The notes beneath the pieces were generated by a model. The model saw nothing but the letters and a program-made list of their open reading frames with translations. It searched no databases and was not told the DNA's origin. A stretch of 64,000 nucleotides of DNA from Hyalangium gracile (GTDB lineage: Bacteria; Myxococcota; Myxococcia; Myxococcales; Myxococcaceae), in contig NZ_JAHXBG010000003.1 of assembly GCF_020103725.1 (NCBI RefSeq), forward strand, positions 496,001 through 560,000, read 5' to 3'. The translations under genes were made by a program, and so were the position numbers. Positions 55,136 to 59,439 of this stretch are shown here, one piece after another. Numbering within the stretch: the stretch's first letter is position 1; every line of letters begins with the position of its first letter.

Positions 55136-56563
55136 CTATTCCTTGCGCAGGGTGAAGAAGAGAGTCTCATATCTCCGGGCAGAGACCGCCCAGGAGAAAT
55201 CCCGCTCCATGCCCCGCCGCCGGAACGCCTCCAGCCGGGGCGGGTCCGCATAGAGCGCCAGCCCCCGGCGGATGGCCGCCAGCAGGGCCGCCGGGTGGAA
55301 CGCCTCGAAGAGGATGCCGTTGCCGTCCAGGCCCCCCTCCACCGTGTCCACCAGCCCACCCGTCGCCCGGACGATGGGCACCGTCCCATACCGCAGGGAG
55401 TACATCTGGTTGAGGCCACACGGCTCGTAGCGGCTGGGCATCACGAAGAAGTCCGCCCCCGCCTCCACCAGGTGGGACAGGCCCCGGTCGAAGCCGATGT
55501 GGACCCCCACCTGCTTCGGGAAGCGCGCCCGCAGCGCCCGCAGCCCCTCCTCGTAGTGCCCCTCGCCGCTGCCCACCGCCACGAAGCGCAGGTCCGCCTG
55601 CAGCGCCGTGGGCAGCACGTCCATGAGCAGATCCACCCCCTTCTGCCACGCCAGCCGGCTGACGATGCCCAGCACCGGCGCCTCGTCATCCGGCAGCCCC
55701 ATGCGCCGGAGCAGCTCGCGCTTGCACACCGCCTTGCCGGACATGTCCCCCGGGCTGTAGCGCGCTGGCAGCAGGGTGTCCGTCGCCGGGTCCCACTCGT
55801 GCGCGTCGATGCCGTTGACGATGCCGACCAGCCGCCCCTGGTGCCGCCGCAGCAGCCCGTCCAGGTTGCAGCCCAGCTCCGGCGTCTGGATCTCCCTGGC
55901 GTAGGTGGGCGACACGGTGGTGATGGCGTCCGCGAACGTCAGGCCCGCCTTGAGGAAGTTCACCGTGTCGTAGAACTCGACGCCGTCATGGGCGGTGAAC
56001 AAGTCCCACGGCAGCCCCAGCTCCCCCATGATGTCCTTGCCGAACTGCCCCTGGTAGGCCAGGTTGTGGATCGTCATGACGCAGCGCGCCCGAGACAGCG
56101 GGGTGTGCTGGAAGCCGCGCCGCAGCGCCACCGCCGCCAGCCCCGTCTGCCAGTCGTTCAGGTGGACGATGTCCGGGATGAACTGAAGCCGCTGGGCCGC
56201 CTGGAGCGCGCCCATGCTCAGGTAGGCATAGCGCTGGTGGTTGTCGCCGAACTCGCCGAAGGCATCCCCGTAGATGCCGGGGCGCCCGAAGAACCGCTCG
56301 TTCTCCAGGAAGAGCACCTCGTGGCGCTCGGCCTGGCGGACGGCGAGGATGGGGCCCCCCTGCTCGCCGAAGGGAAAGCGCAGCCGCACGGAGTGCCCGG
56401 TCGGGGTCAGCCGAGGATCCTTCACGTCCGCGTAGCGCGGGGTGACCACCTTCACGTCATGGCCGAGCGCGGCCAGCGCCGCCGGCAGGGCGCCGGCCAC
56501 GTCCCCGAGTCCGCCCGTCTTGGAGAAGGGGGCGACCTCGGAGGCGATGAACAGGATCTTCAT
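55136..56563 (-). CDS. glgA: Glycogen synthase GlgA
   Basis: A 475-aa GT5 glycosyltransferase that extends alpha-1,4-glucan from ADP-glucose. The ADP-glucose motif KTGGLGD is at residues 15-21; further hallmarks are HLNDWQTGLAAVALRR, TTVSPTYAREI, GIVNGIDAHEWDPATD and the C-terminal PSRYEPCGLNQMYSLRYGTVP. Length and both Rossmann domains are complete. Transcribed away from pdxH. No other glycogen genes are in the window. Confidence 0.93.
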   Translation of the reverse strand: MKILFIASEVAPFSKTGGLGDVAGALPAALAALGHDVKVVTPRYADVKDPRLTPTGHSVRLRFPFGEQGGPILAVRQAERHEVLFLENERFFGRPGIYGDAFGEFGDNHQRYAYLSMGALQAAQRLQFIPDIVHLNDWQTGLAAVALRRGFQHTPLSRARCVMTIHNLAYQGQFGKDIMGELGLPWDLFTAHDGVEFYDTVNFLKAGLTFADAITTVSPTYAREIQTPELGCNLDGLLRRHQGRLVGIVNGIDAHEWDPATDTLLPARYSPGDMSGKAVCKRELLRRMGLPDDEAPVLGIVSRLAWQKGVDLLMDVLPTALQADLRFVAVGSGEGHYEEGLRALRARFPKQVGVHIGFDRGLSHLVEAGADFFVMPSRYEPCGLNQMYSLRYGTVPIVRATGGLVDTVEGGLDGNGILFEAFHPAALLAAIRRGLALYADPPRLEAFRRRGMERDFSWAVSARRYETLFFTLRKE

Positions 56564-56657: not shown

Positions 56658-57242
56658 ATGGAACTGCCCCAGGACCCCATCGAGCGCTTCGCCGTCCTCT
56701 ACGAGCAGGCGAAGAAGGCCATCCCCGTGGACCCGAACGCGATGATCGTCGCCTCGGTGGGAGATGACGGCCGGCCCTCGGCCCGGGTGGTGCTGCTCAA
56801 GGACTTCGATGCCCGGGGCTTCGTCTTCTTCACCAACCTCGAGAGCCGCAAGGGCCGGGAGCTGCGCGGCCACCCCGCCGCGGCGCTCGTCTTCTACTGG
56901 CAGCCGCTCGAGCGGCAGGTGCGGGTGGAGGGGCGCGTGGAGACTGTCTCGGAGGAGGAGGCGGACGCGTACTTCCAGAGCCGGCCCCGGGGCAGCCAGA
57001 TCGGCGCCTGGGCGAGCCACCAGAGCCAGCCGCTGCCCTCGCGCCAGGTGCTGGAGGAGCGGGTGGAGTCCCTCACCCGCCAGCACGAGGGGAAGACCAT
57101 TGCCCGGCCGCCCCACTGGTCTGGCTTCCGGGTCGTCCCGGACCGTATCGAGTTCTGGCAGGCCCGCCCCAGCCGCCTGCACGAGCGCATCGTCTACACG
57201 CGCACCGGCGACGGCTGGAGCACCGAGATCCTCTACCCGTGA
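56658..57242 (+). CDS. pdxH: Pyridoxamine 5'-phosphate oxidase
   Basis: A 194-aa FMN flavoprotein that makes pyridoxal 5'-phosphate. Motifs: [68 protein letters not shown] and the C-terminal [19 protein letters not shown]. xanthus FprA, encoded beside csgA, is a flavoprotein of this family; here too the gene is convergent with csgA, with 17 bp between the two, which supports the identity of both. Confidence 0.92.
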
Positions 57243-57259
57243 GCGCCAGCCCCCGGCCC

Positions 57260-57287
57260 CTACCAGGGCACTTCCTTGCCCTGGTAG
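57260..57287. terminator. Hairpin spanning the end of csgA, shared with pdxH
   Basis: CTACCAGGGCA (57260-57270) and TGCCCTGGTAG (57277-57287) are a perfect 11-bp inverted repeat with a CTTCCT loop. The stem is formed by the last codons and stop of csgA (YQGKEVPW), and lies 18 bp after the pdxH stop. As I recall, M. xanthus csgA and fprA were reported to share a terminator; this is a good candidate for the equivalent. Confidence 0.75.
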
Positions 57288-57970
57288 TCCAGAAACCGGC
57301 CGCTGTTGGCCAGGGTGAGCTCGTCTATCACCCGCAGCATCCCCTGCACGGACTCCTCGGCGCGCGTGGGAGCGATCTTCCCTCCCAGGTCGGTCTGCAC
57401 CCACCCTGGATTGAGGACGGCGGTGATGAGCCCCTGCTCATGGAAGTCCACGGCCATGGTGCGCATGCCCGCGTTGAGCGCGGCCTTGGACATGCGGTAG
57501 GCGTACGCCCCGCCCGCGAAGCCGTAGACGCCCACCGGCGTGTTGTCCGCCAGCGAGGCCATGCGCGTGGTCAGGTGGATGATCTTCCGCGTGCCGCCCT
57601 TGAGCACGTTGGGGATCAGCGCGGAGGACAGGCGCATGGGACCAATGGCGTTGGTCTCCATCACGCGCGCCATGTCCTCGAAGTCCACCTCGGCAAAGGC
57701 GTTCCACTTGCCGCCGATGCCCGCGTTGTTGATCAGCACGTCGATGGGCGATCCGCTCAGCGTGGTGGCGAAGGCCCGCACGCTGTTGGGGTCCGTGACA
57801 TCGAGGGTGTGGATGCGCAGGCGACCACCCGCCTCTCGCGCCAGGGAGGCCAGCTGCCGGGCCTCCGAGGGGACGCGAGCCCCAGCTTCGACGGTGTCGC
57901 CACGTGCGAGAAGTTGTCGGACGAATTCGAGGCCAATGCCGCGACTGGCCCCTGAGATGGCGTAGCGCAT
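57260..57970 (-). CDS. csgA: CsgA (C-signal precursor), short-chain dehydrogenase family
   Basis: A 236-aa SDR protein. Start MRYAISGASRGIGLEFV, NNAG at residues 81-84, YxxxK in AYAYRMSKAAL (Tyr158, Lys162) and the C-terminus SGRFLDYQGKEVPW closely match M. xanthus CsgA as I remember it. Two differences: a seven-residue insertion before the YxxxK helix, and Thr at position 135 where CsgA has the catalytic Ser (TTRM instead of TSRM). CsgA is needed for fruiting; its N-terminus binds NAD and it is cut to p17. Gene order with pdxH and hemG supports orthology. No Shine-Dalgarno is present before the ATG. Confidence 0.85.
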   Translation of the reverse strand: MRYAISGASRGIGLEFVRQLLARGDTVEAGARVPSEARQLASLAREAGGRLRIHTLDVTDPNSVRAFATTLSGSPIDVLINNAGIGGKWNAFAEVDFEDMARVMETNAIGPMRLSSALIPNVLKGGTRKIIHLTTRMASLADNTPVGVYGFAGGAYAYRMSKAALNAGMRTMAVDFHEQGLITAVLNPGWVQTDLGGKIAPTRAEESVQGMLRVIDELTLANSGRFLDYQGKEVPW

Positions 57971-57975
57971 ACATG

Positions 57976-59439
<1,464 letters not shown>

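Follow-up and report, generated by a model that had tools for sequence, protein, structure and literature searches.

The csgA gene of the window (the whole stretch of 64,000 nucleotides of Hyalangium gracile DNA analyzed here) encodes a threonine at position 135, which is occupied by the catalytic serine in CsgA of the Myxococcus xanthus type. Thr135 is fixed throughout the Stigmatella/Hyalangium clade, which comprises at least eight species, and has a single origin. The gene is a true csgA orthologue, present in single copy, and not a paralogue. We consider it probable that its product is a functioning SDR with a Thr-Tyr-Lys triad, a co-adapted pocket and an altered substrate fit, in which catalysis would be retained, the exchange compensated and a part in C-signalling kept. 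The gene, its relevant sites and its neighbors are located in the window as follows.

55136..56563, minus strand: glgA-type glycogen synthase, named by eye from the sequence; synteny kept
56658..57242, plus strand: pdxH/fprA, pyridoxamine 5'-phosphate oxidase (identity confirmed by NCBIfam TIGR00558); convergent neighbor and marker of the csgA locus
57260..57970, minus strand: csgA orthologue, sniffer-type classical SDR of 236 aa; start ATG at 57970, 236 codons plus stop
57485..57499, minus strand: Y158RMSK162 with the catalytic Tyr and Lys, which correspond to Tyr151 and Lys155 of M. xanthus CsgA
57518..57538, minus strand: 7-residue insertion PVGVYGF, residues 145-151, within the loop that links strand 129-133 to the YxxxK helix
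57566..57568, minus strand: codon ACG for Thr135, the catalytic-serine position
57953..57955, minus strand: codon TCA for Ser6, within the coenzyme motif TGxxxGxG; M. xanthus-type CsgA has Thr6
58075..59439, plus strand: hemG/hemY-type protoporphyrinogen oxidase, named by eye from the sequence; divergent neighbor, synteny kept

The protein contains the motifs SGASRGIG, NNAG, LT-T135-RM, Y158RMSK162, and NPGWVQT, and matches Pfam PF00106 with 100 bits. It thus has the hallmarks of a classical SDR, namely a Rossmann fold with TGxxxGxG (Ser replacing the first Thr), NNAG, and YxxxK; the Ser of the Ser-Tyr-Lys triad is absent and Thr135 is found instead. An open frame of 238 aa lies antisense to csgA (window positions 57239-57955, plus strand), which the high G+C codon usage most likely explains.

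The assignment as csgA is based on phylogeny, synteny and copy number, and the identity of residue 135 plays no part in it. The gene order glgA-pdxH/fprA-csgA-hemG is common to other genera of the family, including the deeper genus g21. In a maximum-likelihood tree of 93 sequences, the clade of the window CsgA has a support of 100/100 and is sister to the CsgA clade of genera g5, g6, and g19, home of the M. xanthus type; its stem measures 0.35 changes per site. We take g6 and g19 to be the genera of Myxococcus- and Corallococcus-type CsgA, and the proteins of L055 and L057 to be M. xanthus-type CsgA, since 164-165 of 166 residues agree with the C-terminal sequence of CsgA. Tree, gene order and single copy bear out the earlier note, which had called the gene a CsgA orthologue without recourse to its neighbors. 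That note had also named a second, canonical csgA elsewhere in the genome as the finding that would make this copy a divergent paralogue. The own genome, 11.73 Mb in size and 100% complete, yielded none with the window CsgA, M. xanthus-type CsgA, and the second-copy type from Myxococcus as queries; the next matches are generic SDRs with 39-40% identity or below. A second CsgA-like gene does exist in Myxococcus, Corallococcus, and others, with 44-49% identity to the window CsgA, and could have lent weight to a canonical csgA lying elsewhere. However, no other full-length match above about 40% occurs in the own genome with any of the three query types, and tree and gene order place the window copy in the csgA line, so that the divergent-paralogue reading was ruled out and retains hardly any credibility.

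This second CsgA-like gene (L095-L113, 226-229 aa) resides at another locus in many genomes of the Myxococcus/Corallococcus/Archangium group and forms its own strongly supported branch. Its product (e.g., the 228-aa protein of L098) is also a CsgA-class SDR with an SSxLGS motif and of the same length class as the window CsgA, but it belongs to a separate branch, has Ser at position 135 and carries no insertion. The type is absent from the clade of the window.

M. xanthus CsgA (p25, C-factor; Ser135-Tyr151-Lys155) and the window CsgA share the same neighborhood, a single-copy csgA and the same SDR motifs, and are 59-61% identical, with 139 identical residues overall in the comparison with the M. 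xanthus-type proteins (L055, L057). They differ by Ser135->Thr, Thr6->Ser, Gly138->Ala, Met160->Ala (167 in the window CsgA), His180->Asn (187 in the window CsgA), and the 7-residue loop insertion. The earlier note had described an alignment without gaps up to position 135 with Thr for Ser, a Ser in place of Thr6 and seven additional residues before YxxxK, and all three are found: residues 1-135 align with 0 gaps (79/135 identical) and end in codon ACG, residue 6 is encoded by TCA, and the insertion comprises residues 145-151.

We compared 60 syntenic CsgA sequences, eight from the Thr135 clade and 52 others. Thr135, Ser6 and the insertion, whose core GVYGF is invariant within the clade, occur together in all eight orthologues from the own GTDB genus and its sister genus g8, while Ser135, Thr6 and the lack of an insertion characterize 52 out of 52 other orthologues. 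The alignment of CsgA from many myxobacteria at position 135, which the earlier note had proposed, thus separates the two residues completely, and what that note had framed as a peculiarity of this species turns out to be clade-wide. One of the eight members (G079) is presumably S. aurantiaca DW4/3-1, and another (G082) has the CsgA sequence of Hyalangium versicolor. All eight form one clade, which indicates a single event rather than repeated convergence. The Thr135 codon is ACG in all eight species genomes and the Ser135 codon is TCG in 46/52, so one base change is enough for the exchange. In 51 other distinct SDR open reading frames of the own genome, the catalytic-serine column never contains Thr; it is occupied by Ser (43), Ala (4), Pro (2), Asp (1), or Gly (1). 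The identical ACG codon in eight genomes rules out a sequencing or assembly error and, together with the 0/51 count, shows that Thr135 is neither an error nor a chance change. We treated Ser6 as a conservative exchange and not as a meaningful loss; Ser is found there also in some second-copy CsgA proteins (L108, L110, L112).

Other positions near the active-site motifs, which the earlier note did not mention, changed along with residue 135. Position 138 is Gly and position 167 is Met in 52/52 Ser135 orthologues, and in all eight Thr135 proteins they are Ala or Ser and Ala or Val, respectively. Position 176 is Leu in 52/52 and Phe in the Thr135 clade, position 187 is His in 50/52 and Asn in the clade, and position 184 changed from Val to Ala in the clade. 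Several of these positions lie next to the catalytic Ser, the YxxxK helix or the PG motif, which would place them on the substrate side of the SDR active site. We therefore infer a rebuilt pocket that would accommodate Thr135; the basis is that these residues became fixed together on a single branch, i.e., in one event. All 60 orthologues agree in Tyr158, Lys162, Arg10, Asn107, the coenzyme-motif glycines and PGW..T. The dN/dS ratio within the Thr135 clade (0.086, GY model) is similar to that of the Ser135 groups g3 (0.086) and g19 (0.084) and a little higher than that of the Ser135 group g6 (0.063). Relaxed selection or a pseudogene was ruled out by this value and the intact frames.

The predicted structure also looks like that of a maintained enzyme. 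The AlphaFold model has a mean pLDDT of 95.2, decreasing to about 81 in the block with the inserted loop, and is closest to NADPH-bound chicken carbonyl reductase (3wxb), with a Z of 35.0 and an rmsd of 1.4 over 230 residues; Drosophila Sniffer (1sny) aligns with Z 34.2. The likeness to these Sniffer-type carbonyl reductases extends over the full-length fold, with Z values of 34-35 and an rmsd of 1.1-1.4 for 228-230 residues, but identity is 32-40% and the window gene sits in the myxobacterial csgA locus. The comparison with 1sny and 3wxb concerns the fold and overall identity, and the window CsgA has Thr at the catalytic-serine position.

On the stem branch of the Stigmatella/Hyalangium clade, the catalytic Ser changed once to Thr, for which the replacement of one T by A (TCG to ACG) was enough, and Thr6 -> Ser, G138A/S, M167A/V, L176F, H187N, and the 7-residue loop with its fixed GVYGF core before the catalytic Tyr arose on the same branch. 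We propose the following mechanism. NAD(P) binding and SDR activity would be retained. The hydroxyl of Thr135 may polarize the substrate oxygen in place of serine, beside Tyr158 and Lys162, with its extra methyl group fitted by the co-fixed changes, and the inserted loop may reshape the substrate pocket. The earlier note had offered a choice between an enzyme that tolerates Thr in this background, signalling without a need for catalysis, and a C-signalling that differs in this species. The first of these fits best, given the invariance of Tyr, Lys and the coenzyme site, the normal constraint and the changes that accompanied S135T at positions that do not vary otherwise; the other two are less supported.

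The outcome of Ser-to-Thr exchanges in other SDRs varies. The S138T mutant of Comamonas 3beta/17beta-HSD had kinetics comparable to wild type (as cited in PMC3519566), MabA S140T was inactive and did not bind NADPH (PMC3519566), and FabG S138T was one of the variants in an assay whose triad mutants remained active (PMC7973133). The exchange thus leaves some enzymes active and abolishes the activity of another, and the effect depends on the background. E. coli FabG still works when the triad is missing (PMC7973133), and the conservation of Tyr and Lys alone is therefore no proof of a triad mechanism. The engineered mutants of 3beta/17beta-HSD, FabG, and MabA carry the same exchange at the catalytic serine as the window CsgA, but they are laboratory changes in unrelated SDRs, whereas the exchange in the clade is natural, fixed and accompanied by other changes. 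The authors of the Comamonas mutagenesis call Thr ‘conspicuously absent’ at the catalytic-serine position of SDRs (quoted in PMC3519566). A keyword search of the literature yielded no SDR with a natural Thr, and the clade of the window supplies one at the very position of that remark.

Alternatively, catalysis could be dispensable in this clade. CsgA would then be only a precursor that is cut to the p17 C-signal by a secreted protease, which in M. xanthus is PopC, and the serine would have been free to drift. There are two current models of C-signalling, protease-made p17 and a product of the CsgA phospholipase, possibly both, and the p25-to-p17 model, which is a live one, requires no enzyme activity (PMC6434023; PMC11559036). 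NAD-dependent cardiolipin cleavage is reported for the family of M. xanthus CsgA, Sniffer, and HSD10 (cited in PMC11559036, PMC9587951). The in vivo lipid activity of HSD10, the human relative, is contested, and the dispute about the physiological weight of its cardiolipin-phospholipase activity likewise favors dispensability (PMC9587951). We nevertheless judge a dispensable catalysis to be quite improbable, as the catalytic, coenzyme-site and glycine-motif residues named above are invariant in all 60 orthologues, dN/dS is not raised, and Thr is fixed in 8/8 instead of variable; drift should yield Ala, Gly, or Cys too.

A shift in substrate or role has different support. In that case, the CsgA of the clade would act on another lipid or a ketone, and C-signalling would be chemically different or proceed via another protein. 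The long stem branch, the new conserved GVYGF loop that lies between the catalytic Ser/Thr and Tyr, and H187N and G138A at otherwise nearly fixed positions all point in this direction. So does the complete loss of csgA in the related genus g7, which marks the C-signal system as evolutionarily labile. Yet gene, neighborhood and constraint are kept as in other genera, and the shift overlaps with the functioning Thr-Tyr-Lys SDR, which already allows an altered pocket; as a separate explanation we find it unlikely.

M. xanthus CsgA with the S135T exchange reportedly fails in development. The residue that is said to inactivate the M. xanthus protein is the wild type in Stigmatella/Hyalangium, and the co-evolved pocket (G138A/S, M167A/V, H187N, GVYGF loop) may have changed the chemistry or the substrate of C-signalling, such that the C-signal would differ from that of M. 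xanthus. We propose this tentatively and consider it doubtful. A clade whose only csgA carries a substitution reported to be inactivating in M. xanthus represents a natural test of the need for the enzyme, and the co-fixed residues provide a few named candidates to swap. Whether C-signalling proceeds via CsgA enzyme activity or via the proteolytic fragment only is a long-standing dispute (PMC11559036, PMC9746145).

The csgA locus varies among relatives. In genus g7 of the same family, csgA is cleanly lost (L172-L174, L176; genomes G073-G076), with glgA, pdxH, and hemG retained and a spacing of about 20-38 bp from pdxH to hemG. Elsewhere in these four genomes, no CsgA-class protein with an identity above about 37% over the full length was found. 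G075 is presumably the fruiting species Cystobacter fuscus DSM 52655. In G074 (C22:2347-2508), a 130-aa frame includes 54 residues that match the beginning of the second-copy CsgA-like protein with 69% identity and possibly represent a remnant of this paralogue in g7. Some g3 and g6 genomes contain about 1.5-2.6 kb of extra DNA between csgA and pdxH (L066, L067, L073, L074, L075), and the tight csgA-pdxH pairing is thus broken there.
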